Shown here piece by piece: positions 14,471-37,753 of a stretch of DNA of 64,000 nucleotides. The notes below the pieces were generated by a model that made no database searches, was not told the DNA's origin, and saw only the letters and a list, made by a program, of their open reading frames with translations. Location of the stretch: the NCBI RefSeq assembly GCF_001586785.1, contig NZ_LUFH02000013.1:1-64000 (forward strand), given 5' to 3'. The stretch comes from Sphaerospermopsis aphanizomenoides BCCUSP55. GTDB taxonomy: Bacteria > Cyanobacteriota > Cyanobacteriia > Cyanobacteriales > Nostocaceae. Each line of letters starts with the position of its first letter. Positions within the stretch are counted from its first letter, which is position 1. The translations under genes and the position numbers were made by a program.

Positions 14471-15727
14471 TTAAGGTAAGATATTCCAGGCAAGTGCAAC
14501 TTCTTTTAATTCTTTAAGAATATTCTTAGTTTTATTTAGAATATCTACTGCTAGCTCTGGGTCTTCACCACAACCAGCGTGCAACACATCATTACGTAGC
14601 TTAGTGAGATTATACTTGCCTTTCCAAAGTTGTCTTAACTTTTCTTTTTTACTTTGTGGCACTTTTGACCATTGTGATAAGTGACGTAAATCTCTGACTA
14701 AATTTAATTGTGCTGTTGGGTTGGTAGGTGCTTTTAGCAACTTTTCCATGTCTTCTCGATGTCCTTGTTTCCGAGGATCAAGATTGAAGTAGTAACATAA
14801 TAATGAGGGTAGCCATTCTCTGGCTAAAGATAAAGCTTGAACAACTTGACCCTTATTTACATACCATTCAACCATTCTTAACTGCTTAACCAAAGATGCT
14901 TTAGCATTAGTTTGATATTCTTCTGGGTTAGACAAACCAAAACTTCCATAATCATTTTCTACACGGTTTAGGAGAGTTGTGAATGGTGGTAAACTTTGAG
15001 AGACAATTGATGATACAGCTTTAATATTTTTAGGTAATAATGCAGCTTCTTCCATGACATCTATTGGACGTAGAAGTTGTAACCCCTTTGCTATTTCGTC
15101 AATATTATTTGCTAATTTCTTAGTTGTATGATCACCATTATCTAATAATCCCGCTAGTGCTTGAGCGTTGCCTGTTTTAAGAAATTGGTCTGTTGCTGTT
15201 GTCCATTCTAGTAAGCTGACTATTGGTAATAGGTCAAAAATAGGAGTTTTATTGGTTTCTCTGTTTTTAGCATCTAGCGCACCATAAATTAATCCATCTA
15301 TTTTTACCTGTCTTACTATCCGTAAGTAACTGACAGCAATCAAAGCTACAATTGGTAAAAATCTAAATCCATAAGTTATATCAAATAAAACGCTATCTTC
15401 TTCTTGAAGGCATTCAGTTAATAAAGAAAAAATTTTCCATAAATCTTCAGGGCTGCTACTTTCTGGTACATTCTTAATAGGTTGTAAGTCAACCTTACCA
15501 GCTAATCGTTTTTGTAAAGACGACCAATTAGATTCAGTTCTATCTTCAGGAATCCCCGTTTCAGCTTTATTTGTTAAAAGCACATATAGAACTTGCGGTT
15601 TGTAGAATTTTACCATTGCTTCTTGAAAAAATTCTGTTTCATATTCATCATTACCATCAGGACTAATATAGATAGTTCTATCGTAACCTTTTTTGGGATT
15701 AAATCCTAAAAATGAAATTGCTTTCAT
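14471..15727 (-). CDS. csx1: Csx1-family CARF-HEPN ribonuclease
   Basis: Cyclic-oligoadenylate-activated RNase of type III CRISPR immunity. The N-terminal half (1-170) is a CARF domain of the Csx1/Csx2 class: KAISFLGF at the start and DITYGFR (116-122), a variant of the family DxTHG motif with Tyr for His. The C-terminal half is helical and ends with a HEPN active site R378-N-D-V-L-H383 (RxxxxH). No signal or membrane segment. It is the last gene of the leftward III-A operon, 24 bp after cas6. On ligand made by the Cas10 palm domain it is expected to degrade RNA non-specifically. Confidence 0.88.
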   Translation of the reverse strand: MKAISFLGFNPKKGYDRTIYISPDGNDEYETEFFQEAMVKFYKPQVLYVLLTNKAETGIPEDRTESNWSSLQKRLAGKVDLQPIKNVPESSSPEDLWKIFSLLTECLQEEDSVLFDITYGFRFLPIVALIAVSYLRIVRQVKIDGLIYGALDAKNRETNKTPIFDLLPIVSLLEWTTATDQFLKTGNAQALAGLLDNGDHTTKKLANNIDEIAKGLQLLRPIDVMEEAALLPKNIKAVSSIVSQSLPPFTTLLNRVENDYGSFGLSNPEEYQTNAKASLVKQLRMVEWYVNKGQVVQALSLAREWLPSLLCYYFNLDPRKQGHREDMEKLLKAPTNPTAQLNLVRDLRHLSQWSKVPQSKKEKLRQLWKGKYNLTKLRNDVLHAGCGEDPELAVDILNKTKNILKELKEVALAWNILP

Positions 15728-19995: not shown

Positions 19996-20535
19996 TTAAT
20001 TATTCCTATTTGAATTATTTGTTTCAGCAGCTTTGTGATAAGCAATGATAGATTCGATTAAATTTACTAGCCGATAAAAATCAGGTATATCTTTGACTCT
20101 ATCTATCGCCTCTGAAAGCACATCATTCAATGGCTTAACTGGATTTATTTTTTCCTTATCTTTGCGGGCAGTAGCATATACCAATTTAGGTTTAAGCAGA
20201 ACTACCTCTGTTTCAATAGTCGAAAATTTTTCATCTTTGTCTTGAGCAAGTTTTACTTTGAGGCGATTAACAGCATCCAAAAATTTGCGAATTTGGTTTG
20301 TTGTTAATCCTATTTCTTGCAGATATTCTCCCAATTCTTTAGCTTGTTCAACCAAACAACGAATTTCATAATTTCGCAATTCTCCATCCTTTAAAGCTTT
20401 GATAGTTTGAATCATCTTTTGGTCAGCGGTGAGTTGCATTTGTGCCTCTGACCGTTTTTGTGATGTTTCAACTGCTTTAGCTGGTAGAGACTTAGGCTCT
20501 GGTTTAGAGTTGAATTTTTTTGGTGGTTGTATCAT
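19996..20535 (-). CDS. csm2: Csm2, small (Cas11) subunit of the III-A complex
   Basis: The small helical subunit lining the inner filament. The C-terminal 120 residues carry the family pattern, including LTTNQIRKFLDAVNRLK and LLKPKLVYATARK, close to the LRPKLAYAAGR-type motif. Residues 1-35 are basic and proline-rich, so this protein (179 aa) is longer than typical Csm2. The start at 20535 overlaps the end of cas10 by 32 bp; an internal ATG at residue 33 is an alternative start that removes the disordered extension. Confidence 0.85.
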   Translation of the reverse strand: MIQPPKKFNSKPEPKSLPAKAVETSQKRSEAQMQLTADQKMIQTIKALKDGELRNYEIRCLVEQAKELGEYLQEIGLTTNQIRKFLDAVNRLKVKLAQDKDEKFSTIETEVVLLKPKLVYATARKDKEKINPVKPLNDVLSEAIDRVKDIPDFYRLVNLIESIIAYHKAAETNNSNRNN

Positions 20536-22879
20536 TTGTTTGATTACGATTTAATAGTTCAATCCACGTAGCAATAGCCAAAAAATAACGTGCGTTATAA
20601 GGACTCATTAACGATTTCCGAACCGGAGTAAAGCTATCATTATTGAGTATTTCACTAGGTAATCTTGCTAACGTATAGGCTATTTTAGGTAAGTGTAAAT
20701 AGTAACGGATATCATCAATTTCACTTTCATATTGCTCCTTTTTACGTTTACTCTCAATTTCTTGAATTTTCTGCTCTTGCATTTGAGCAGTATCTAGAAG
20801 ATTACGAACAAAGCTGCGAGCATAATTGATTTCAATATTCTGTTCTTGTATTTTCTTTACAAATGGGAGGATACCAAATAAATCAAGCCTTGTATTTAAC
20901 CCTAAATATTGTTTAATTTTATAATCGAATAATTTAATATCTGAAACATTAACATTTTCTGATCCTAACCACTCACTCCACTTGAAGGCTTTTCCAAATA
21001 GCCCTAAACTATTTCTACCATTTGCTTTAGCAGCATCTTCAGCGTCACCTGATGATTTCGCAGCTTGATAAAGCGGGAATTTAATATCATCAATACTAAT
21101 TCCGCCTGATATCGTAATATCTGGATTATTCCCTGTATAGGCTCGAAAACACTGGTAAATATCACAAGCAAATTCTACGATTTCATTCCATGCTCCACTT
21201 ATGAATAAATCATCACCTCCTGCGTAAATGAATAGTAAATGATCTCGCTTTTCTCTAGTTAAATATTTAGCATTTTTTAGAACCGTGATATTTTGTTGTT
21301 CTTGAGGCTGGATAAAATTAGCATAACGGGTTTCTGCTAAACTATTGAGGTAAACTTTAAAAAAATAACTCATTTGGCGGGAAAGTCCAGCAATTCTAGG
21401 CAAAGTCCGATTGTTTTTATTCAACCCTTCTGCAAAAATTCTTCCTAGTTTGTCTACATCCATTCGCAAATAACCAACTCTGGGAATTGCACCCACTATC
21501 TCTGCTGATTTCGCCATTTCTTCAGCACGGATAAATCTTTTTTCTTCTTCATTCTTCTTGCCATAATTTCCTAACAATAAAAGACTAGTATTTTTTGATT
21601 TATAATTTTCCAAAATCCAATCATTAATTAGGATAATTTTTTCGTCATTTTTAGCTAAACTCAGTGCTTCCTCTCGTGTTTTACAAAGATAGTAGTAGTA
21701 CCCTGGAATATAAATTCTTTCTATATGTTTATCTACACTACCTTTGACATTTGACCTTTTAGACCGTAGTAATGCTTTAACATTAAATAAGCGTTCTCCT
21801 AGTTCAAACATATTGCGGCACATCCAACAAGCGCGAGAAGAATCATTATTTCCTTGAATTAATGGTTTTAAACTGGGTAAGTCATCTCTGTGACAAACTT
21901 TACATGGTTGATAACTCGGATTTGGTTGGATAATAAGATTTATTTCTTGATTAAACTTACGAGCCTTTTGCTCTGCTAAGTCTTTAGTGAGTTTTGTCCA
22001 ATATTCAGCAAAATTTTTCTCTTTGATAGCTTGAGTAGGTACAGATAAGCTATCAATAGCTAAAAAAAGTTTACCTTTAAAGCTTTTCAACAGCCATTTA
22101 TTAAATTTTTTGCAAATTTTATTTACTGATTTCTTAACTTGCTGTAAGTCAGTAGAAGCAATTACATAAAAATTTCCTCCACCCGCATAAATTATATTAG
22201 TATTTGGTAAGTTTAACTCTTCTAGTAATTGTTGTACTACTTCTTCTGTCACCAATTCTAAATAAAAACTCCTAGCCCTTAAAGATTTAAGCGCACCATC
22301 AGCAGAAATAGTATAAATAAATTTTTGAATCCCTGATAAATCACCAGCAATTAAGCTAATTTCCTCAGCAGGATTGTCAATTAAAGCTGCTGCTACTGCA
22401 GCTGTAGTTCTTGCCATGTCTACCAAAGCTACATCAGATTCTCCAAAGCTGAGACATGAACCAAATTTTTCTAATATGAGCATTAATAAAGAAAGATTTT
22501 GCCAATTATCTTTGAGATACTTGTCAAGTTCCTGATTAATTTCAGCTTTGAAACCTTCCTGTGCTTCTTGATCAGGTTTGTAATTCAATGGATAAGGTAT
22601 TGTCGGATAGTCTTCGTCTTTATTTTTAATAGCTGCTAGTGCATGGTAATGAGTTTCTGATGGTTCTTGAATTGGGGTATCAGATAAATTTACACGGTCA
22701 AACAACAAGCGTAATACTCCAACTTCTGTATTTTCATTCCAACCTAATATTTTCTTTGCTCTTGTAACTTCTATATACTCTTTATTATCTGGAGAAGGAT
22801 AATCACATTCAGCCCATTTTGCTAAAGCTGCGATCGCTTGTTGAATAACCTGTAATGCTATTTGAGAACTTGTCACCAT
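20504..22879 (-). CDS. cas10: Cas10/Csm1, large subunit of III-A; palm GGDD present, HD motif absent
   Basis: Signature subunit that makes cyclic oligoadenylates when target RNA is bound. Visible in order: a palm-1 motif GDLSGIQKFIYT (179-190), a zinc-ribbon with C326-x2-C329 and C351-x2-C354, MDVDKLG in the second palm, and the active GGDD at 554-557 (IYAGGDDLFISG). The N-terminal 150 residues, where family members carry an HD nuclease (LHDIGK), have no HD pair. Single-strand DNase activity is therefore not expected, while signalling should work. Length 791 is normal. It is the first gene of the leftward csm operon. Confidence 0.92.
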   Translation of the reverse strand: MVTSSQIALQVIQQAIAALAKWAECDYPSPDNKEYIEVTRAKKILGWNENTEVGVLRLLFDRVNLSDTPIQEPSETHYHALAAIKNKDEDYPTIPYPLNYKPDQEAQEGFKAEINQELDKYLKDNWQNLSLLMLILEKFGSCLSFGESDVALVDMARTTAAVAAALIDNPAEEISLIAGDLSGIQKFIYTISADGALKSLRARSFYLELVTEEVVQQLLEELNLPNTNIIYAGGGNFYVIASTDLQQVKKSVNKICKKFNKWLLKSFKGKLFLAIDSLSVPTQAIKEKNFAEYWTKLTKDLAEQKARKFNQEINLIIQPNPSYQPCKVCHRDDLPSLKPLIQGNNDSSRACWMCRNMFELGERLFNVKALLRSKRSNVKGSVDKHIERIYIPGYYYYLCKTREEALSLAKNDEKIILINDWILENYKSKNTSLLLLGNYGKKNEEEKRFIRAEEMAKSAEIVGAIPRVGYLRMDVDKLGRIFAEGLNKNNRTLPRIAGLSRQMSYFFKVYLNSLAETRYANFIQPQEQQNITVLKNAKYLTREKRDHLLFIYAGGDDLFISGAWNEIVEFACDIYQCFRAYTGNNPDITISGGISIDDIKFPLYQAAKSSGDAEDAAKANGRNSLGLFGKAFKWSEWLGSENVNVSDIKLFDYKIKQYLGLNTRLDLFGILPFVKKIQEQNIEINYARSFVRNLLDTAQMQEQKIQEIESKRKKEQYESEIDDIRYYLHLPKIAYTLARLPSEILNNDSFTPVRKSLMSPYNARYFLAIATWIELLNRNQTNDTTTKKIQL

Positions 22880-23196
22880 AAATACTTTTGCTCACAACAA
22901 CTTTAAAACCCACGCCAAAGCTTGCACCATCGGACGCTAGGATACATCTCCATTTCGCTGTAAACAGTGAACTCTCCCTATAAGCTTATGCCCTTTTTGC
23001 TCAATATAATCACTGCCAATATTACAATCGCTGTAAATAATTGCTACAACTTGTAAACTTCCTGCATCTAATGATAACTATCTGATTGTTCTCCCCCTCC
23101 GTCCCCTGTCTCCCCCACTCCTACGGCTTATTCAACGATTGCTTATGGTTTTATTTGCCAGCCTCTCAGCCATTCTCCCAACGCTGTACTCGGTAG
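22880..23196. other. gene-free spacer between csx3 and the csm operon
   Basis: No open frame or tandem repeat was seen apart from a short CCCCCTCCGTCCCC tract. It should hold the promoter of the csm operon if that is not read through from csx3. I could not identify one with confidence. Confidence 0.4.
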
Positions 23197-23502
23197 TTAA
23201 TCAATCAAATCTCCTAGCTTATAAGCAGGATTGTGAGTAATACAAATTACATACTTAGCCAATTTCGGGTCAAAAAAACCAATAGCACCATAGATATGTG
23301 CAAGTTTATGCGCCAGCACAAAAGCCACAGGAATAGACACAGGGCCATTAATCTTCAACAATTGACCTCCTGCTAATTCTCCCGACTGTGCCATCTGTTC
23401 CAAGCGTGCGGCTGCATCTTTAACAATTTGGTCATTTTGGGCAGGTTCGCCAAAATTAATTCGTAAAATTCCTTCTTGCAACTCAATTTTGTAAGTAGTC
23501 AT
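23197..23502 (-). CDS. csx3: Csx3 (Crn3-type) ring nuclease candidate
   Basis: Csx3 proteins bind and cleave cyclic tetra-adenylate, turning off CARF effectors. This 101-residue stand-alone protein has the family layout: GILRINFGEPAQNDQIV near the N-terminus, GQLLKINGPVSIPVAFVLAH, then AHIYGAIGFFDPKLAKYVIC and ITHNPAYKLGDLID. The histidines in VLAHKLAHIYG and the Asp of FFDPKL are in the region used by the tetramer for catalysis in Archaeoglobus Csx3. It is leftward, upstream of the csm operon and downstream of the WYL gene. A second Csx3 is fused to an ATPase at 26827-27846. Confidence 0.9.
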   Translation of the reverse strand: MTTYKIELQEGILRINFGEPAQNDQIVKDAAARLEQMAQSGELAGGQLLKINGPVSIPVAFVLAHKLAHIYGAIGFFDPKLAKYVICITHNPAYKLGDLID

Positions 23503-23582: not shown

Positions 23583-23705
23583 ATTGATAATTGATAATTG
23601 ATAATTGATAATTGATAATTGATAATTGATAATTGATAATTGATAATTGATAATTGATAATTGATAATTGATAATTGATAATTGATAATTGATAATTGAT
23701 AATTG
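23583..23705. repeat. tandem heptanucleotide repeat (ATTGATA)n
   Basis: About 17.5 uninterrupted copies of ATTGATA. This is a short tandemly repeated repetitive (STRR) tract as is common in Nostocales. Copy number is likely to vary between strains. Confidence 0.95.
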
Positions 23706-23792
23706 TTTCATTTCAGGTTTAAAACCTCTCCTTTCCAGGATAAAAATTCAAACAGTTACTATTTTCTAATCCTCTCATTTCTAGGTAGAGTT

Positions 23793-23827
23793 AATTGTCA
23801 ATTGTCAATTGTCAATTGTCAATTGTT
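23793..23827. repeat. tandem heptanucleotide repeat (AATTGTC)n
   Basis: Four copies of AATTGTC and a partial fifth. It overlaps the last codons and the stop of the WYL gene. It is the reverse complement of the ATTGACA family seen at 26097 and 26522. Confidence 0.9.
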
Positions 23828-25278
23828 GAACACTTGTTATAGTTAGACAATTCTTTGATTGCTTCTTCTTTGAGTTGTTGTCGAATTGATAAGGGTGAAA
23901 TTACTTCTCCATTTGGTCGCCAGTCTCGCAAGCGCATCAGGACGTTGATATCACCAGTACGTATCCAAGCCATGTAATAAACATCTTGATTATTTCTTTG
24001 TTTGAGAATACCTAAAATCTCTTGTTGCTGGGCTGCGGGAATATTTGTTGTAATTAAATTTGGTAGTTTTTCAAAAGCAATACGCCGAAAAGAATGATGG
24101 CGAAATGTGTTATCTACATACCAATGGGCAAATGCGGAGGGAAAACGAATAATTAATAATTCTCGTTTGAGGTAAAAGTTGAATCCCCAAGCTTTCTCTA
24201 ATTCTGATTGTACATATTCTGGGGTGGGTAAATTTCCTATATGCCACATTTCTTTTAGTTGTTTAGGTATGGCAGGATCTCCCCAGGCTAGAATTTGCAA
24301 TTTTTCTGAAGCAATGCGGTCAAGACGGTAGTTGTGCCATGTTAAATTTCCTTGAGGATCTAAGCCATAGGCGCTGAGATATTTAGCACGACGTAGGTAA
24401 TGCAAACAAACTGGATAAACTGTAATTTCTACTTTGCTTTCGGTTTTTGCTATCCAATATTCAAACTGCACTACTCCACCAGGAGGTTTACGCCAAAGCT
24501 GTTCTAGCTGTTCTTGATAGTTGTCTACTTGGTCTTGCATTTCTGGAGACAGAATATAATCTAAGTGCAGAAATATCCTTTGTTGTGGTTCTTGGGTAGT
24601 TGAGGAAGAAGAAGGAGAATGGTCTAATATTTGTTCCCACAAACTTTGGATGATGATATCTAAGTTTGGTTGGACAAAAGCTATTGACTCTAATACGTGC
24701 AGTAGTTCCCAGGTTTGGGGTAAGGACAACTGGGTAAAGGTGGTTTGTGTGGCTGATGGTGTTGTGGGTGCTGGTAGTTCGGCTTTGGGAAGAATTTGAT
24801 ATTGTCCTTTGAGAATTGTTTGTAGCCATCCTAAATTAGTTAGCTGTTTGAGATCATCTCTGATGGAACGATGAACGGTAGCAAAGGGGCGTTGTTGTTG
24901 TAGTTCTTGGAGTTGTTTAATATTTATGCCGGTGAGTTGTAATATTTCTTGTTGCCATTCGGTTTCTGATATGTGGCAATTTGATATTTGGATAATTTGC
25001 CATGCTGTTTGATGACAGATGCAAGTGATATCTTGACATTTTGTAGTTATTTCTTCGGCGTTGAGTTTTTCGCTTTTGGGATGGTGTGGAGAATATAGGC
25101 GATCGCGCAGTTGTGCGTAGGTAAAATTTTTTGGTAGGTCTGTTGTGCAGTTTTCTTCCCCGTAGAGTTTATTTAATATTACCCATAGTCTGATTGAACG
25201 CTGTAATCTGTTGGCTAGTTGTCCTGCTGCTAACCAATGTAATATTTGCGGTGTGGGTGGATAGGGGAAGGAGTTCAA
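23812..25278 (-). CDS. WYL-type CRISPR-associated regulator (TIGR03985-like)
   Basis: The 488-residue protein resembles the cyanobacterial CRISPR-associated TIGR03985 family. The N-terminal half has helices fit for a winged HTH (IRLWVILNKLYG, FTYAQLRDRLYSP). The C-terminal half has a WYL-like domain around 270-345 (VYPVCLHYLRRAKYLSAYGL, then LTWHNYRLDRIASEKLQIL) and a WCX-like tail. In Synechocystis a WYL protein (Sll7009) represses a type III-D CRISPR locus, so a regulatory role is likely. It lies between the array and csx3 and is read in the same direction. The last residues (STIDN) are encoded by the AATTGTC repeat, so the C-terminus has been remodelled by repeat insertion. Confidence 0.8.
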   Translation of the reverse strand: MNSFPYPPTPQILHWLAAGQLANRLQRSIRLWVILNKLYGEENCTTDLPKNFTYAQLRDRLYSPHHPKSEKLNAEEITTKCQDITCICHQTAWQIIQISNCHISETEWQQEILQLTGINIKQLQELQQQRPFATVHRSIRDDLKQLTNLGWLQTILKGQYQILPKAELPAPTTPSATQTTFTQLSLPQTWELLHVLESIAFVQPNLDIIIQSLWEQILDHSPSSSSTTQEPQQRIFLHLDYILSPEMQDQVDNYQEQLEQLWRKPPGGVVQFEYWIAKTESKVEITVYPVCLHYLRRAKYLSAYGLDPQGNLTWHNYRLDRIASEKLQILAWGDPAIPKQLKEMWHIGNLPTPEYVQSELEKAWGFNFYLKRELLIIRFPSAFAHWYVDNTFRHHSFRRIAFEKLPNLITTNIPAAQQQEILGILKQRNNQDVYYMAWIRTGDINVLMRLRDWRPNGEVISPLSIRQQLKEEAIKELSNYNKCSTIDN

Positions 25279-26070: not shown

Positions 26071-26096
26071 AAAAAATTGCTAAATATTAATCTGTG

Positions 26097-26141
26097 TTGA
26101 TAATTGACAATTGATAATTGACAATTGACAATTGATAATAT
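26097..26141. repeat. ATTGACA/ATTGATA tandem repeats
   Basis: Alternating copies of ATTGACA and ATTGATA on the left side of the four-helix-bundle gene. The same repeat occurs at its 3' end (26522-26553) and, inverted, at 26769-26795. Confidence 0.85.
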
Positions 26142-26176: not shown

Positions 26177-26533
26177 ATGAAAGAAAATATTATTAAGGGT
26201 AAAAGCTTTGATTTTGCAGTTCGTGTTGTCAACTTATATAAATATTTAAGTAACGAAAAACAAGAATTTGTTTTATCAAAGCAATTACTCCGATCTGGTA
26301 CTGCAATTGGCGCATTAGTAAGAGAAGCTGAACAAGCAGAAAGTAAAGCAGATTTCATTCATAAATTAGCAATTTCGCTGAAAGAAGCAAATGAATCAGA
26401 TTACTGGATAGAACTAATCTATCAAACAGATTACCTCACAGAAAAACAATACAAAAGCATCAAAGATGATAATATGGAGTTAATCAAACTTTTAACTTCC
26501 ATCATAAAAAGCAGTAAAAAAATTGATAATTGA
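26177..26533 (+). CDS. four-helix-bundle protein (S23/Avd-like)
   Basis: A 118-residue helical protein of the family named after the insertion in 23S rRNA genes (TIGR02436-like). Markers are LRSGTAIGALVREAEQAESKADF, FIHKLAISLKEANESDYWIELI, and a closing helix LIKLLTSIIKSSKK. Relatives form pentamers and include Avd of diversity-generating retroelements, but no reverse transcriptase or template repeat is seen here. The function of solo members is unknown. It is bordered on both sides by ATTGACA repeats, and its last three residues and stop (IDN) come from that repeat. It separates the CRISPR array from the III-D operon and looks like a later arrival. Confidence 0.85.
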   Translation: MKENIIKGKSFDFAVRVVNLYKYLSNEKQEFVLSKQLLRSGTAIGALVREAEQAESKADFIHKLAISLKEANESDYWIELIYQTDYLTEKQYKSIKDDNMELIKLLTSIIKSSKKIDN

Positions 26534-26553
26534 CAATTGACAATTGACAATTA
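26522..26553. repeat. ATTGATA/ATTGACA tandem repeats overlapping a stop codon
   Basis: AATTGATAATTGACAATTGA and a further copy. The stop of the four-helix-bundle gene lies inside it. The last residues IDN recur at the end of the WYL protein at 23812. Confidence 0.85.
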
Positions 26554-26826
26554 TTTTCTTTTGGCGTTGGAATACCCCTCTTCTGTATGGGTGACATAAT
26601 GATACCTGTCAAACTTGAAAAGACAAATTTATGGTTATGTCTTTATCTGTAGCAATTGATAATTTACAGCATATTGCAGATCAATAAGGTACAAATTTTT
26701 AACACAAAGCCTTACACCAAAAGGGTTTTACTGCTGACTGCTGAAAGCTGCTGGAATCAAACCATTTTCAATTGTCAATTATCAATTGTCAATTTTATTT
26801 AGATTTATCTACACAGCAAAGGAGAA
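26554..26826. other. spacer before the III-D operon
   Basis: No gene. It contains an inverted AATTGTC repeat at 26769-26795 and GCTGACTGCTGAAAGCTGCT near 26730. The III-D promoter should lie here. Confidence 0.4.
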
Positions 26827-27846
26827 ATGCTGATGACTGAACCTGCTTTACGCTTGTTATTAAGTGAAACCCTGATGGTAGAAGCTTTACAATATCAGAT
26901 GTTATTGATTGAATTAACAAAAAGCGATCGCATCATTGAACCACAAGACTTGATAGACTTAGAACTACCTGCGGGAATTGATACAACTGGTGGTGTGGTA
27001 ATTTCTGGACGCGCACCGATTTGGTTATATGGCTATCTTATCCATGAATTACATCCTACAGCTTGGGTGGCTTGTTATGATCCTCGCATGGGTGCGGTAG
27101 TGGTAGCTACTCACACTCGGTTAGTGCATATCGGACAAGTAATCAAAATTATTCCTCCCAACGGTAGAACACAGGAAGGGAATTCTACACCAGAAGAATG
27201 GTCTAATTATTTTCAGAATCTTCAGGAATTGAGAGCAAAAAATACGTCTATTTCTCCTCTTCCACAACAGGAAAAATTGTGTCCAGCTTTGATGGTTGTC
27301 GGTCCTCCTGACAGTGGTAAAAGTGTATTTTCCCATGCGTTGTTTCAAGCTTTGCTATCAGAAAATCCTGATATTTATTTACAACGCGCACATTGGGATG
27401 GTGAGGGAAATTATGTGTTAGAAATGGGTACAGAGGCTACAGATGAAGAAATTGAAGCTTTTAAAGCACGTAATCGCGGTTCTCTGACAGAGAGGTTTTT
27501 TCCCTACCAAGCGCAAGCTATTCTTCAGTTACGACGACAGAAGTCTCTGGTAATTGTGGATGTGGGTGGGATGGTACAACCAGAAAAATTACCGCTGTTG
27601 GAAGTTTGTACACATTATTTAATCATTAGTTCCCGACTGGAAGCGGTGGATGGTTGGCATGATTTTTGTGGTAGTTATGCTAATTTAATACCAGTAGCTG
27701 TTATTTTCAGCACTCTCACAGAAGTTGAAATAGTTCACACCTGTGAACCTTATGTAGAAATTACTTGTGGTGCTTGGGTACGAGGTAAAGCGCGTGCTGT
27801 TCCAGAGATTTTACTAGAACGAGTAAGAAAGATTGTGAATGGCTAG
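26827..27846 (+). CDS. csx3: Csx3 domain fused to a P-loop ATPase (Csx3-AAA)
   Basis: Residues about 10-110 form a Csx3-like unit (GGVVISGRAPIWLYGYLIHE, then WVACYDPRMGAVVVATH and LVHIGQVI), parallel to the stand-alone Csx3 at 23197. Residues about 150-339 are a P-loop NTPase with Walker A GPPDSGKS (about 160-167) and a Walker B-like strand KSLVIVDVGG. The fusion is known from cyanobacterial type III loci, but the job of the ATPase half is not established. Ring-nuclease activity towards cyclic tetra-adenylate is expected from the Csx3 half. It is 42 bp upstream of the III-D cas10 and begins the operon. Start may be ATG 26827 or 26833. Confidence 0.85.
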   Translation: MLMTEPALRLLLSETLMVEALQYQMLLIELTKSDRIIEPQDLIDLELPAGIDTTGGVVISGRAPIWLYGYLIHELHPTAWVACYDPRMGAVVVATHTRLVHIGQVIKIIPPNGRTQEGNSTPEEWSNYFQNLQELRAKNTSISPLPQQEKLCPALMVVGPPDSGKSVFSHALFQALLSENPDIYLQRAHWDGEGNYVLEMGTEATDEEIEAFKARNRGSLTERFFPYQAQAILQLRRQKSLVIVDVGGMVQPEKLPLLEVCTHYLIISSRLEAVDGWHDFCGSYANLIPVAVIFSTLTEVEIVHTCEPYVEITCGAWVRGKARAVPEILLERVRKIVNG

Positions 27847-27888: not shown

Positions 27889-30198
27889 ATGACAGGTATG
27901 AGTTCGGTGGCGATCGCAATTAGTTGGTGTTTAGCTTGGGGTAATGGACGGGAACCGCAGAATAAAGAAGTTATCCAGCAAATGCGGGAAGCTTTAAAAA
28001 ATGATGAAGAATTTCCAGAGGAAGTGAATAAGTTAGTTCAGCAAGCGCAAGAATTAGACGGGTTGAAATTTCCTAATACTGTAGAAGAATTAAAGCAACT
28101 AACAGAAAAATATCCTCAATTTTGGGAATCGGAAATTGGTTTAGTTTATGGTGGTGTAACTAAGGTTAAACAGTATGTATTTGAATCAGCAAAAATTCAA
28201 GAAGTGCGTGGTGCATCTGGTTTATTAGATAGAATTAATTTAGTTGATTTACCAGCATTTTTCAATCAAATTTATCAACCAGCATCCTCTAATGAAAGAG
28301 ATAAAAACTTATATACAATTCAATGTAATAATGTAAAAAAATGGTTAAACGATAATTTTAATCAAGACTACGATTTATCAGAAGTTCTCATTCCCCAATT
28401 AATCATCTATTCAACAGGTGGAAACATTCTGGCTTTTTGTCCTGCTGCGTATGTTCATGACTTAGCTGATGCTATCGAAAAACGTTATACTCATGAAACA
28501 TTAACAGCTAATTCCTGTGCGGTTGGTGATACATTTAGACTATTAGAAATTCGGTTTGGATTACTCAAAGAAAAAATAGAAGATACACCTTGGTTAGATT
28601 GGTATCAAAAGAATTACCAAAAACCAATTGTTCAAGCTTATTTCGGATTTCCTAAAAATGAAAATGAACGTTTAGAAGTATTTCAAAACCGCAAAAGCTT
28701 TAATGAAATCACCACCAAACTAGCCATTTTATTTAATCAACGACGTAGCGGTAATGATATTCCCGGACGACATACCAACCGTCGATATCCAGTCATGTTT
28801 GAAACCCATCCTTATTTAGTTAGAGATGGAAGTGATCGACGTTCTACTATTATGAGAGTAGGTGAAGGTGAATTACCAAGAGAAACCTATTTTTCGGAAG
28901 CATCAGTTAGAAAATATCTTGTTGGTGATAGAACCAAAGATGGAGATACAGAAGAACCAACATGGTATATTGATTCTAAATTAGAATGGCGTAGAGGTAT
29001 ATTTGAAAGTTGGGTAAAAAGATTTGATAGATTTTTAGAAAAGCATGACTATTTAAAAACCAAATATTATGGAAATATCAAACCTAAAGATGTAGAAATT
29101 CCTAAAACATTAACTCATGTATCCAATGCTAGTAATGGCTTTGTAGCCTATATTTACGCAGATGGTAATAACATGGGTGGATATATCCAAAAAATTCGCA
29201 CTCCTCAGAAATATCAAAAATTTAGTGCAGACGTAAGTAAAGCTACAGAAAAGGCTGTTTTTCACGCAATAGCAGAAAACTTACATCCTCATGTTTTGAA
29301 GAATTACAATAATGATGAAGATCATAGATTTAAAAGTGGAGATTTAGTGCATCCATTTGAAATCATTACCATCGGTGGTGACGACATTTTCATCATTGTT
29401 CCTGCTAACAAAGCCTTAGAAATTTCTCAAATGATAGGAGAGAAATTTGAAGAAATAATGATTGACAGATCAGATGAAATAACAGATTATAGAATTGAAG
29501 CAAATAAACCTGTAGATAAGAGAAAAATTCACCGTTATCAACCACAAACAGCTAAAAACTCAGAATGTAAATTGAGTACATCCATAGGAGTTTTAATTAC
29601 TGCTGTTAACACACCAATTTACTACGCCAAAGATTTAACAGAACAATTACTAAAATCCGCCAAAGAAAAGGCCAAGAAATTAAAGAAAGTAGAATATCAC
29701 GGTGGAACAATAGACTTTCTAACTCTAAAATCAGTTAGCATGATTGCATCTAATGTTAAAGACTTCCGTAGTGAAGCGTTAATTATCGAAACTTCTCCTA
29801 AATTAAGACTTTATGCAGCACCCTATACATTACATGAAATAGGAGGATTATTAAAATCCATTGCAGCATTGAAAAAAGCCAAGTTCCCCAAATCACAACT
29901 TTATCAAATTCGTAGTTTATTAGAACGAGGTAAACACACAGCTATCCTTAACTATCGTTATTTCCGAGTCAGACTTAAACAAGGTAAAGCTGAATTAAAA
30001 AGAGATTTTGAAGAAGTTTGGTGTTTACCCAAAGATGAAAATAATAATGGTAACTTAGCACCTTGGATGTATGATGCAGAGGAAAAAATCTACGAAACAA
30101 TTTGGCGCGATATTGTTGATATTTATGAATTTGTAGAAGAACCAGAAAGTGAAGAATCAGATAAATCAGAAAATTTAACAGCGGGGGTTGAGTCATGA
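27889..30198 (+). CDS. cas10: Cas10, large subunit of a type III-D-like complex; GGDD present, HD absent
   Basis: A second Cas10 (769 aa), closer in layout to Cmr2/III-D forms than to Csm1. It has VTKVKQYVFESAKIQEVRGA (about 90-109), the counterpart of the Cmr2 IREMRGAS block. YADGNNMGGYI (423-433) lies in the palm, and GGDD is at 496-499 (TIGGDDIFIIV). There is no N-terminal HD pair; the chain begins directly with helices. Cyclic-oligoadenylate synthesis is expected and DNA cleavage is not. The C-terminal tail is acidic. Its stop overlaps the next start (ATGA at 30195). Confidence 0.9.
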   Translation: MTGMSSVAIAISWCLAWGNGREPQNKEVIQQMREALKNDEEFPEEVNKLVQQAQELDGLKFPNTVEELKQLTEKYPQFWESEIGLVYGGVTKVKQYVFESAKIQEVRGASGLLDRINLVDLPAFFNQIYQPASSNERDKNLYTIQCNNVKKWLNDNFNQDYDLSEVLIPQLIIYSTGGNILAFCPAAYVHDLADAIEKRYTHETLTANSCAVGDTFRLLEIRFGLLKEKIEDTPWLDWYQKNYQKPIVQAYFGFPKNENERLEVFQNRKSFNEITTKLAILFNQRRSGNDIPGRHTNRRYPVMFETHPYLVRDGSDRRSTIMRVGEGELPRETYFSEASVRKYLVGDRTKDGDTEEPTWYIDSKLEWRRGIFESWVKRFDRFLEKHDYLKTKYYGNIKPKDVEIPKTLTHVSNASNGFVAYIYADGNNMGGYIQKIRTPQKYQKFSADVSKATEKAVFHAIAENLHPHVLKNYNNDEDHRFKSGDLVHPFEIITIGGDDIFIIVPANKALEISQMIGEKFEEIMIDRSDEITDYRIEANKPVDKRKIHRYQPQTAKNSECKLSTSIGVLITAVNTPIYYAKDLTEQLLKSAKEKAKKLKKVEYHGGTIDFLTLKSVSMIASNVKDFRSEALIIETSPKLRLYAAPYTLHEIGGLLKSIAALKKAKFPKSQLYQIRSLLERGKHTAILNYRYFRVRLKQGKAELKRDFEEVWCLPKDENNNGNLAPWMYDAEEKIYETIWRDIVDIYEFVEEPESEESDKSENLTAGVES

Positions 30199-32535: not shown

Positions 32536-32572
32536 GTAAAATATTTTTCGTAAATTGAAGGTAAAAACAGAA

Positions 32573-33688
32573 ATGAGAAACACACTAATTTGCACTGTTG
32601 GAACAAGTCTATTTGGCAATATCAGAAATTCTGAGGAATCAATAAAAAAAGCATTTGAAGATAAAAATTGGAATCAATTAGCATTGTTATTAATTGAACA
32701 AGAAAATACAGCGCGGGTTTGCGGTGCAGAAATAAATTCTATTACCAGTATTTGCAGTAAAAATCTCCTGACATCCAGAATACGCTTGATTTTTTTAGTT
32801 TCAGATACCGAAGAGGGTAAGAATACAGGTCAAGTGTTAAAGCTATACTATAGCAATAAAAAAAATTCTTTAAAGTTTGATGAAGTTGATTATCGCATAC
32901 TTGAAGGTTTACGTGATAATGATGTTAAGGCTTTTAAACAACAGGGGTTAAAAAATTTAGTCAAAGAAATTAGCACAGAAGTAAGAAAATTTACTCCAGA
33001 AACAATAGCCATTAATGCAACTGGTGGTTATAAAGCACAGATATCATTTGCTGGAATGATTGGACAAGCATTAGAAATTCCTGTTTACTATTTATTTGAG
33101 AAATTTTCAGAAGTGATTGAGTTACCACCACAACCAGTAGCCTTAGATTTAGCATTTTGGTTGAATAATTATCTTTTGTTTGCACAACTTGAGGACGAAC
33201 AAATTATAGAAGAATCAAAACTAGAAGGTAATCTAGATAGTGAATACTTATATTCACTTATTGATAAAGAAACTGAAGGAGAAACCAATGTAGTTAGTCT
33301 TTCAGCAATGGGTGTTTTGTTTAATGAACGTTCTCGATTACAATTTGCTAAACAAGAAAATACTATTCTTTCTCTCATTCCTCAAGACGATACTGAACCA
33401 AGTCGTAAAATTATTAACTTAAGAGATGATCATGGTAAGGATATAATTCAGGCATTTTCTGAGAGAGTATGTCAATCTCCTTATGTGAAGAAAGTAATCA
33501 ATTCTCTGCCTTTTAATCCCAAACGTAGTAACCCAATTCGACGTACAACAGATAATGGAATAGTAGAATTCGTATTAACTTGGACAGATACAGGATTAGG
33601 TATATGTATTGAAACAACAGGAAGAAATAAAGCAGAGACAAATACTATAGCCATATACCTACAAAAAAAATTTGCGGAGAATAATTAA
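32573..33688 (+). CDS. CARF protein (APE2256-like) with a RelE-like C-terminal domain
   Basis: Start taken at ATG 32573, preceded by GAAGGT; the TTG at 32555 is poorer. The N-terminal 190 residues are a CARF domain of the APE2256/PF09651 class: NTLICTVGTSLFGN at the start and INATGGYKAQISFAGMIGQA (about 147-166). This class includes the Crn1 ring nucleases. The C-terminal third (about 290-371) reads as a small RelE-like fold: a helix FSERVCQSPYVKKVINSLPF, then FNPKR, then strands VEFVLTWTD and GICIETTGRNK. CARF-RelE fusions have been predicted for type III loci, and here RNA or ribosome-dependent cleavage on cyclic-oligoadenylate binding is inferred. Without the fold match it could be a ring nuclease. 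Confidence 0.7.
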   Translation: MRNTLICTVGTSLFGNIRNSEESIKKAFEDKNWNQLALLLIEQENTARVCGAEINSITSICSKNLLTSRIRLIFLVSDTEEGKNTGQVLKLYYSNKKNSLKFDEVDYRILEGLRDNDVKAFKQQGLKNLVKEISTEVRKFTPETIAINATGGYKAQISFAGMIGQALEIPVYYLFEKFSEVIELPPQPVALDLAFWLNNYLLFAQLEDEQIIEESKLEGNLDSEYLYSLIDKETEGETNVVSLSAMGVLFNERSRLQFAKQENTILSLIPQDDTEPSRKIINLRDDHGKDIIQAFSERVCQSPYVKKVINSLPFNPKRSNPIRRTTDNGIVEFVLTWTDTGLGICIETTGRNKAETNTIAIYLQKKFAENN

Positions 33689-34695: not shown

Positions 34696-35640
34696 ATGCA
34701 CAAAAAATTTGTCAATCACTGCACCATAGATTTAACCATCATACCCGATGGTCCCATTCTTATAAAATCTGGAAAAGAAGGTGCAGATCCCACAAAACCA
34801 GATATGGAATTTGTCGAAACCTATCATCCTGGTGGACGTACCATATACTTACCTGGAAGCAGTTTAAAAGGTGCAATTCGCGCCCATGCAGAACGTATTG
34901 TCAGAACTGTAGGAGAAGAAAAACCTAACAGTAAAAAGCTACCTTGGGCTAATGATCCATTAAATGATAAATATGATTATTTGAAAAATAAATCATCTAG
35001 TGAAATTTATCAACTTTCTTCTTTTACCGACCAAATATTTGGCAATACTTCTATTGCTAGTCGTCTGAGAATAGAAGATGCTTATCCAGATAATTCAAAA
35101 CCATTAAAAACAGAAGAAAGAAACGGTGTAGCTATTGACAGAGTATTTGGTTCTGTTGCTGTTGGTCCATTTAATTATCAAGTCTGCACTGCGGGAGAAT
35201 TTAAAACCAAATTACATTTAAAAAACTTCACCCTGGCACAGTTAGGTTTAATTGGTTTAGTATTGCGAGATTTAAATGATGGTTGGTTTGGTTTAGGTTT
35301 TGCGAAATCTCGCGGTTTGGGTACTGTAGAAGTCAAGTTAAATAAAGCTGTCGTGCAGTATCCTGGTTGTATTTTATCAGCAGATAAACAGGAAATTTGT
35401 GCCTTTGGTAATAATAAAAAATGGCGCAATACTTTTCTATTAGGTGTAGGTGAATTTTTAACAGAAGATGACGCGAAATTATACAGTTTTTCACCACAAG
35501 ATAGTCAAGATACACCTGTTGCTGCTCAAGAAATGGCTTTAGGTTTTGGTGTTGAATTGACTTGGACAGAAGGTAGAGTTAACGATTTATTTGAACGCGG
35601 TGTTAGGTCTTGGAGTAAATTATTAGTAGGTACAAAATGA
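34696..35640 (+). CDS. Csm3-like Cas7 RAMP, III-D subunit 3
   Basis: A 314-residue RAMP of the Csm3/Csx7 type. It has LPGSSLKGAIRAHAERIVR (about 54-72), IASRLRIEDAYPD (about 118-130), NGVAIDRVFGSVAVG, and the loop LGFAKSRGLGTVEV (about 200-213). Aspartates lie at the expected cleavage region (DPTKPDMEF), but the exact equivalent cannot be assigned. It is the first gene after the repeat insertion; no strong ribosome site precedes the ATG. Its stop overlaps the next start. Confidence 0.85.
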   Translation: MHKKFVNHCTIDLTIIPDGPILIKSGKEGADPTKPDMEFVETYHPGGRTIYLPGSSLKGAIRAHAERIVRTVGEEKPNSKKLPWANDPLNDKYDYLKNKSSSEIYQLSSFTDQIFGNTSIASRLRIEDAYPDNSKPLKTEERNGVAIDRVFGSVAVGPFNYQVCTAGEFKTKLHLKNFTLAQLGLIGLVLRDLNDGWFGLGFAKSRGLGTVEVKLNKAVVQYPGCILSADKQEICAFGNNKKWRNTFLLGVGEFLTEDDAKLYSFSPQDSQDTPVAAQEMALGFGVELTWTEGRVNDLFERGVRSWSKLLVGTK

Positions 35641-36092
35641 ATACTTTTGTAGGTTATAAAGAAAAGCCTTTATCAGTTCCTGAACTGTTGATAGTAATCA
35701 ATGAATTGAAAACAGACAATACCCATTATTTTCTACGTTGTACTCATGAAGTAAGCGGAATTCAGACGCTTAAAAAAAAGCCAATTACAGAAGATAAATT
35801 TCCCATGTTGGAAGGGCAGATATTTAATCATGAATTTGAACTAAGATGGAAACACAAACGAAATAATACTTACGAAGTTCTGCTTTTAACTACTGGTGAA
35901 AATCATGATAACTTTCAACAATTAGGTCAAGATTGGCAAATAGAAGAAAGAAAAGCTCATTTTTATCAGTCTACAGAAACTCGCTTTCCTAAAGGTTTTG
36001 ACTATCCCGACAACCTACATATCAAACAGCGATATTTTCTAGATAAAATAACCGCAACTGTACATTTTATATCGCTCACAGTTGAGAAATAA
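35637..36092 (+). CDS. Csx19-like III-D accessory protein
   Basis: A 151-residue protein without a RAMP loop. Position (among III-D RAMP genes), length and the ending RYFLDKITATVHFISLTVE fit Csx19 (TIGR03984-like), a subunit seen only in III-D loci, but the assignment rests mainly on context. The start overlaps the previous stop by four bases; 3 bp separate it from the next gene. Confidence 0.5.
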   Translation: MNTFVGYKEKPLSVPELLIVINELKTDNTHYFLRCTHEVSGIQTLKKKPITEDKFPMLEGQIFNHEFELRWKHKRNNTYEVLLLTTGENHDNFQQLGQDWQIEERKAHFYQSTETRFPKGFDYPDNLHIKQRYFLDKITATVHFISLTVEK

Positions 36093-37132: not shown

Positions 37133-37753
37133 ATGAGTTTAACAGATAATCAATGGGAAATTGCCCATGCGATCGCACAAACTTTAGTCCAACAAGATAC
37201 AGATGTCAACGAAGTAGGTAAAACCGTTGCATATCTGCGGACAATAATTGATAAATCTGATGCTACATCTAGATTTTTAACCTACCTCAAAACCTTAGTT
37301 AGAGACGGTAAACAAATTGGACACAGTGGTAAAACTTTTGGATATTATCACAATATAGAAATTACCTGTAGTCAGTATTTTAAACCTAACAGTGATGCTC
37401 AAACTATTCTGCAAATTTTAGGTTGGGTATCTCGCTTGATGCGATATTACAAAGAAGCAGGTGTTCCCATTGGGGAAATTACCACACCCGCAGCACCAGT
37501 TGTCGAGTCAGCACGTCAAGCGGAAATTGCTAAAGTGACGGAATCTCAGGAGTTTAAAGAAGGGGATGTCATAGAAGCGAAAGTTACTAAAATTAGTGGG
37601 AATAAGGTCAGTTATGAGATATTGGAAGTCATTAAGCTGACTGAGAAAGAACCAAAAAAGGCAAGTTTACTACAGGAAGGACAGATAGTGAAGGTTAAAA
37701 TTGCTGCTTTGAAAGAGGATGGAAGTATTAAGAGTGTGAAGTGTATTGAGTGA
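37133..37753 (+). CDS. unknown protein with C-terminal S1/OB-like domain, end of III-D operon
   Basis: 206 residues. The N-terminal 110 residues are helical (WEIAHAIAQTLVQQD, DATSRFLTYLKTLVRDG). A linker rich in Ala and Pro follows, and the C-terminal 70 residues (FKEGDVIEAKVTKISGNKVS, then LLQEGQIVKVKIAALKEDG) read as a small beta-barrel of the S1/OB kind that could bind RNA. It is 2 bp from the RAMP gene, so it belongs to the operon. I know no named Cas family for it. Confidence 0.65.
   Translation: MSLTDNQWEIAHAIAQTLVQQDTDVNEVGKTVAYLRTIIDKSDATSRFLTYLKTLVRDGKQIGHSGKTFGYYHNIEITCSQYFKPNSDAQTILQILGWVSRLMRYYKEAGVPIGEITTPAAPVVESARQAEIAKVTESQEFKEGDVIEAKVTKISGNKVSYEILEVIKLTEKEPKKASLLQEGQIVKVKIAALKEDGSIKSVKCIE

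Follow-up and report, generated by a model that had tools for sequence, protein, structure and literature searches.

The stretch of DNA analysed here, called the window below, comprises 64,000 nucleotides of one contig of the cyanobacterium Sphaerospermopsis aphanizomenoides BCCUSP55. A III-A operon on the minus strand and a III-D operon on the plus strand lie on either side of a short CRISPR array, and each has a csx3 gene at its array end. The gene that heads the III-D operon is an open reading frame of 339 codons (26827-27846, plus strand) whose product joins a Csx3/Crn3 domain to an intact P-loop NTPase; the one on the III-A side encodes a stand-alone Csx3 of a subfamily that we call B1. 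The features, with the evidence used for them, are as follows.

14471..15727, minus strand: Csx1 (CARF-HEPN, RNDVLH motif, R-x4-H), effector of the III-A operon; profile match and motif
20504..22879, minus strand: III-A cas10/csm1 with GGDD, directly downstream of the gene remnant; profile match and motif
about 22904..23062, minus strand: remnant of a Csx3-NTPase partner gene (B2) with one in-frame TAG; 63% over 51 aa, E=1.7e-12
23197..23502, minus strand: stand-alone Csx3 of subfamily B1, 101 aa; profile matches, residue comparison, dN/dS
23812..25278, minus strand: WYL-domain regulator, divergent from the fusion; relatives at this position in other loci carry the name TIGR03985
25442..25878, no strand assigned: CRISPR array of 6 repeats between both csx3 genes; repeat detection
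26833..27846, plus strand: probable coding sequence of the Csx3-NTPase fusion; Pfam, TIGR and PADLOC matches, AfCsx3 structures by sequence, AGGAG at 26820-26824
26878..27162, plus strand: Csx3/Crn3 domain, residues 18-112; profile matches, catalytic residues, structural match to 6yud_H
27163..27273, plus strand: variable linker, residues 113-149; length, pLDDT, dN/dS
27274..27843, plus strand: SIMIBI-like P-loop NTPase domain, residues 150-339; alignment, predicted model, structure searches
27301..27324, plus strand: Walker A GPPDSGKS, residues 159-166; G, G and K invariant in 56/56 relatives
27397..27411, plus strand: DGEGN motif, residues 191-195, probable switch I; D, G and G invariant in 56/56
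27556..27570, plus strand: Walker B / switch II VDVGG, residues 244-248; D-x-G-G invariant in 56/56
27889..30198, plus strand: III-D cas10 with GGDD cyclase motif, directly downstream of the fusion
32555..33688, plus strand: CARF7 (CARF_DUF2103 / CARF-RelE type), candidate cOA effector of the III-D operon; 462 bits

Two further genes on the plus strand, csx19 (35637-36092, 155 bits) and csx21 (37133-37753, 301 bits), are III-D associated. Between the array and the fusion lies a gene for a 23S rRNA-intervening-sequence protein (26177-26533, plus strand; PF05635, E=1.8e-26), here outside rRNA, and Sphaerospermopsis kisseleviana has an 88% identical copy at the corresponding position (L003 9572-9934; L numbers denote the sampled loci). 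Runs of the heptamer TTGATAA/TTGACAA are found around the csx3 genes and the array (23583-23712, 26096-26141 and 26501-26560), and this simple repeat may have helped to rearrange the locus. As GGDD is kept in both Cas10 proteins and the III-A operon includes a Csx1 of the CARF-HEPN type, cOA signalling is plausible in the window.

The fusion gene has two candidate start codons. The Shine-Dalgarno sequence AGGAG (26820-26824) precedes the ATG at 26827 by 2 nt and the ATG at 26833 by 8 nt, and because of this spacing the latter is probably the start, giving a product of 337 aa (residue numbers for the fusion count from 26827 throughout). The PADLOC model Csx3-AAA (PDLC01045) aligns with 303 bits from residue 24 to 337 on model positions 25-284, covering both domains. 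Purifying selection acts on both halves: dN/dS is 0.11 for Csx3 and 0.14 for the NTPase, as against 0.35 for the linker between them (residues 113-149). In the predicted model the linker has pLDDT values mostly below 50, and in the alignment of window-type relatives, that is, fusions of the same clade, an equal length recurs only in L003. The earlier note had described a Csx3 unit joined to a P-loop domain with GPPDSGKS and a Walker B-like strand. The PF09620 match (E=2.8e-34) and the motifs at residues 159-166 and 244-248 bear this out, and chance is excluded as the source of the observation.

The Csx3 half has the makings of a ring nuclease. In Archaeoglobus fulgidus Crn3/Csx3 (AfCsx3), cA4 is cut to linear A2P in a Mn-dependent manner by dimers stacked around it (eLife 57627). 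These dimers sandwich cA4, each completing the active site of the other, and tetramerisation is required for activity; the residue numbering and roles are from the same paper, in which R71 is termed absolutely conserved (PMC7371418). The fusion scores 117.2 bits against PF09620 (cut-off 21) and 108.9 bits against TIGR02579 'ring nuclease Crn3/Csx3' (cut-off 55.4), it matches the AfCsx3 structures by sequence at E of about 1e-17 to 1e-18, and the Csx3 half of its model superposes on 6yud_H with Z 15.3 and rmsd 2.1 over 103 residues. Its S60, G61, R62, I65, H73, H76, D85, R87 and H96 correspond to S44, G45, R46, I49, H57, H60, D69, R71 and H80 of AfCsx3 (AfCsx3 numbers are used below for the catalytic residues). 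Thus, the fold and all tested catalytic residues are common to the two proteins, although the archaeal one (3WZI, 6YUD) has no NTPase domain. Since the published catalytic set, including H57, H60, D69, R71, H80, G45 and I49, is complete, the window fusion would be expected to cleave cA4 with Mn. The set is widely kept in window-type fusions (n=23), with H57 and H60 in 21/23, D69 and R71 in 22/23 and H80 in 17/23.

For the C-terminal half, Pfam, PHROGs and PDB profiles name no family; only P-loop or Walker A matches are returned. Predicted models (pLDDT 76.9 for the whole fusion; pLDDT 86.7 and pTM 0.81 for the NTPase alone) were compared with solved structures. The best neighbours of the NTPase model are TM0796 (Z 13.8), MinD (13.6), CTP synthases (13.4), ApbC (12.8) and ParA (12.6), followed by DUF1611 (12.5), GPN (12.3), HypB (12.2) and dethiobiotin synthetase (11.7). 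Over this range of Z 11.7-13.8, between 151 and 181 of the 190 residues are aligned to SIMIBI structures. The best 50 neighbours are all SIMIBI-class. An AAA+ fold with a helical lid does not occur among these 50, an absence that by itself is no exclusion. Foldseek returned SRP GTPases, GPN, MeaB, CooC, BcsQ and a few small-molecule kinases. Thus, the C-terminal half is probably SIMIBI-like rather than AAA+-like in its predicted fold, with identities to its neighbours of only about 9-17%.

The motifs point the same way. Both a Walker A of the form GxxxxGK[ST] and Asp-containing switch motifs, as in SIMIBI proteins, are present. When 56 NTPase domains of both clades are aligned, the columns without variation are G, G and K in Walker A, D-G-x-G behind strand 2, D-x-G-G in Walker B and a single W. 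GPPDSGKS and VDVGG are nearly or fully invariant across 23 relatives of the fusion, and the NTPase motifs do not vary across about 80 relatives. The AAA+ form of Walker B, hhhhDE, is replaced by D-x-G-G in all 56 domains, and the AAA label thus draws support neither from this motif nor from the predicted fold. The 'P-loop ATPase' of the earlier note was right in general, and the P-loop is intact. It should be noted that the likeness to MinD/ParA, TM0796/DUF1611, CTP synthase, GPN and HypB is one of fold (Z 12-14), whereas identity is about 9-17% and the deviant Walker A of MinD/ParA (KGGxGK[ST]) is not shared, GPPDSGKS having no signature lysine. The fusion NTPase sequence also has no NKxD motif, and dimerisation and nucleotide choice are therefore guesses.

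The other Csx3 of the window has a different history. B1 (23197-23502) scores 24.1 bits against PF09620 (cut-off 21), 19.2 bits against TIGR02579 (cut-off 55.4) and 104 bits over the Csx3 part of the PADLOC Csx3-AAA model; in the 6.1-Mb genome only the fusion and B1 exceed the PF09620 cut-off. As the Pfam cut-off is passed and the NCBI equivalog cut-off is missed, we file B1 by its profile matches as a member of the Csx3 family only and do not claim Crn3 status for it. It keeps H57 and H60 (with one extra residue between them), D69 and H80, but R71 is replaced by K and R46 by P, a pattern common to essentially all its relatives; the K occurs in every intact one. A search of 386 cyanobacterial genomes with the NTPase model gave a weak match, interrupted by one stop, just behind B1 (22907-23062, minus strand). 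In relatives B1 is normally followed directly by B2, whose product is a Csx3-NTPase fusion of another clade; the order on a Nostoc plasmid is WYL - B1 - B2 - csm1 - csm2 - csm3. The remnant in the window matches B2 at its C-terminal end (63% over 51 residues, E=1.7e-12), and the TAG lies inside the aligned piece. Judged from these relatives, window B1 opens a module of two genes, and the second, its NTPase-bearing partner, has decayed. That B1 might instead be the front of a broken fusion is ruled out by L026, L028-L031 (83-89% identity), L103 and L148, where a complete gene is followed by a separate Csx3-NTPase; because relatives carry B1 as a complete gene of its own, only the second gene is broken in the window. 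The 'separate Csx3 for the III-A side' of the earlier note is thus indeed a second Csx3 across the array, but it is not a simple second copy, having the decayed NTPase-bearing gene behind it.

Loss of the partner is not peculiar to the window. B1 lacks an intact NTPase gene at 12 further sampled loci, including L087 of Sphaerospermopsis kisseleviana, and several of these have remnants. Between partner-less lineages dN/dS of B1 is about 0.03-0.06, and B1 therefore remains under strong purifying selection without its partner. At eight loci B1 lies beside an NTPase-only gene, with no fusion, which suggests that the two parts act together in trans. The idea that B1 needs a second Csx3 for activity was rejected as a general rule, as B1 persists alone or with an NTPase-only gene.

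Where a second Csx3 is present, the fused one has often lost catalytic histidines. Within tandem B1-B2 pairs every histidine is retained by B1; B2 lacks H60 in 16/18 and often also H57 and H80. B2-type fusions found without B1 (L124, L125) keep the histidines, but Slr7080 and its close relatives do not. In the window-type clade, each of the two fusions without H57 and H60 (L011, L017) comes from a genome in which B1 is found as well. On an Allocoleopsis plasmid the gene before a fusion (L147) is a csx3 with the full set, which the Csx3 of the fusion has lost entirely. Walker A is present in all fusions with these losses, those of the triple type described next included; so are DGxG and DxGG behind Csx3 domains that lack H57/H60, as seen in L011, L017, L147, most tandem B2, L123 and Slr7080. 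In Csx3-Csx3-NTPase triple fusions (n=20) the loss is reciprocal: the first Csx3 domain has H57 in 19/20, H60 in 19/20 and H80 in 0/20, and the second has H57 in 2/20, H60 in 19/20 and H80 in 19/20. Fisher p values of 6e-8 and 3e-10 make this pattern look stronger than it is: the triples are a single group in the tree, so that one or a few events may account for it. In the maximum-likelihood tree (quick method) the window type (25 rows) and the other type (48 rows) are set apart with support 100 each, and the triples fall into one group with support 95.

Csx3 modules were tallied at 63 loci. A cas10-like gene directly follows the module in 47/63 and a divergent WYL gene precedes it in 44/63, whatever the subtype. 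Descent relates the loci to one another, and the counts cannot be treated as independent. A relative was assigned to a subtype by its similarity to cas genes of the window itself, and as the queries were the window's two cas10 types, the cas10 figures are lower bounds. Window-type fusions lie beside a cas10d-like gene in at least 12/23 loci and beside a csm1-like gene in at least 8/23; for the other type the figures are at least 17/40 and 10/40. Subtype specificity of the two Csx3 types was accordingly rejected, as both occur with III-A and III-D. In the window each csx3 gene does stand beside one effector operon, as the earlier note had it, directly upstream of its own cas10 (III-D at 27889, III-A csm1 at 22879). 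Its further idea of a separate damper for each complex survives as a statement about gene order, one Csx3 per operon, and not about specialisation, because both types are found with both subtypes and cA4 diffuses.

Two arrangements seen in the survey are of separate interest. One Nodularia contig (L017 / L116) carries two csx3 modules in a single locus: the fusion at the head of a III-D operon has a dead Csx3, and past that operon lie B1, B2 and csx1 as a group that has a WYL gene to itself. In Leptolyngbya PCC 6406 (L025 7062-9053) the window-type Csx3 and NTPase halves are about 1 kb apart, which may be due to an insertion or to a real split.

The architecture of the fusion is already described, as Csx3' / Csx3-AAA (PADLOC PDLC01045, PDLC01515; eLife 2020 57627 Fig. 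1; PMC12409355) and as Slr7080 of Synechocystis, a Csx3 fused to AAA+ (PMC9676260). The window fusion shares with Csx3' / Csx3-AAA the architecture, the cyanobacterial host and the type III association, and does not differ in kind; these sources call the NTPase AAA or kinase/transferase, whereas that of the window is SIMIBI-like by predicted fold. The literature searched contains no biochemistry on any Csx3-NTPase. Slr7080 of Synechocystis PCC 6803 (L146 8001-8933, on pSYSA) is likewise a Csx3-NTPase upstream of a type III module and beside a TIGR03985/WYL gene, but belongs to the other clade. In its Csx3, Q stands at H57, P at H60 and R at H80, positions at which the Csx3 of the window fusion retains histidine. 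Because these histidines are absent, Slr7080 is predicted to be unable to cleave cA4, although the literature calls it a putative ring nuclease.

We prefer the view, to which we give a probability of about 0.5, that the fusion combines a ring nuclease of the Csx3/Crn3 type with a SIMIBI-class nucleotide switch tied to the cA4 signal. Csx3 dimers would sandwich cA4 head to tail, with the H60 face of one dimer against the D69 face of the next. The window Csx3, having the full catalytic set, would then cut cA4 with Mn to linear A2P and so turn Csx1 and CARF effectors off. The NTPase half may perhaps be a nucleotide-dependent switch of the kind that SIMIBI proteins form by pairing. Stacking of Csx3 driven by cA4 could bring the NTPase domains together, and nucleotide binding or hydrolysis would in this way be tied to the cA4 state. 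The fused Csx3 would be the sensor or docking element of the switch, catalysis being provided by a second Csx3 where one exists; this role is proposed because fused Csx3 domains of relatives have often become non-catalytic with the NTPase retained. In the window, the III-D fusion would have both functions intact, and the III-A side would retain only the stand-alone catalytic partner. As the place of the module is fixed between the WYL gene and cas10, Cas10 or control of the operon would be the first candidate targets of the switch.

Other relations between the halves can be considered. The NTPase could serve the nuclease, if NTP-driven pairing of the C-terminal domains controlled tetramerisation of Csx3 and so set the rate of cA4 removal as a nucleotide-sensitive timer. 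The need of Crn3 for tetramerisation (PMC7371418) and the two intact halves of the window fusion, both under selection, agree with such a timer, which we regard as possible but doubtful: the NTPase motifs stay invariant behind a dead Csx3 and loci that have lost the NTPase retain the catalytic B1, so that neither half needs the other. That each half survives separately in relatives also argues against an NTPase that merely helps its own Csx3. Conversely, the fusion might be an effector or regulator more than a damper, in which Csx3 only reports cA4; its NTPase would target the Cas10 complex or cooperate with the upstream WYL regulator, in transcription or turnover of the complex. The persistence of fusions with dead Csx3 fits this proposal, as does the position of the module directly upstream of cas10 (47/63) with a divergent WYL gene (44/63) in any subtype. 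However, the catalytic set of the window fusion recurs in most fusions of its type (H57/H60 21/23, D69/R71 22/23) and a target cannot be read from gene order alone, and we think the proposal unlikely.

The P-loop domain might also be passive or vestigial, in an otherwise ordinary Crn3. In favour of this, B1 alone is a stable end state, and deletion of slr7080 in Synechocystis reportedly left plasmid interference unaffected (PMC9676260), a result that also counts against the preferred reading, although the Csx3 domain of Slr7080 lacks H57, H60 and H80. Against a passive domain stand the invariance of Walker A, DGxG and DxGG over 56 divergent sequences and the NTPase dN/dS of 0.14, and we consider it quite improbable. 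Returning to the preferred reading of a ring nuclease with a cA4-tied switch, a wider and more tentative proposal, which we put at somewhat below even odds, is that cyanobacterial Csx3 has repeatedly been split into a catalytic Csx3 and a non-catalytic, NTPase-fused Csx3 that acts as cA4 reader or docking part. The triple fusions would then have a composite site, a natural counterpart of the rescue in vitro of H60A by D69A, and Csx3-NTPase would be a cA4-gated nucleotide switch.

In closing, records of the NTPase half of Csx3' go back to about 2020; its probable NTPase class can now be named, and its motifs are seen to be kept behind dead Csx3. Some proteins filed as ring nucleases, such as Slr7080, are predicted to be unable to cleave cA4. 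The natural variants in which labour is divided offer a way to dissect the sharing of active sites between Crn3 dimers. If the proposed reading is true, Csx3-NTPase would be a cA4-gated nucleotide switch, and more than a damper.
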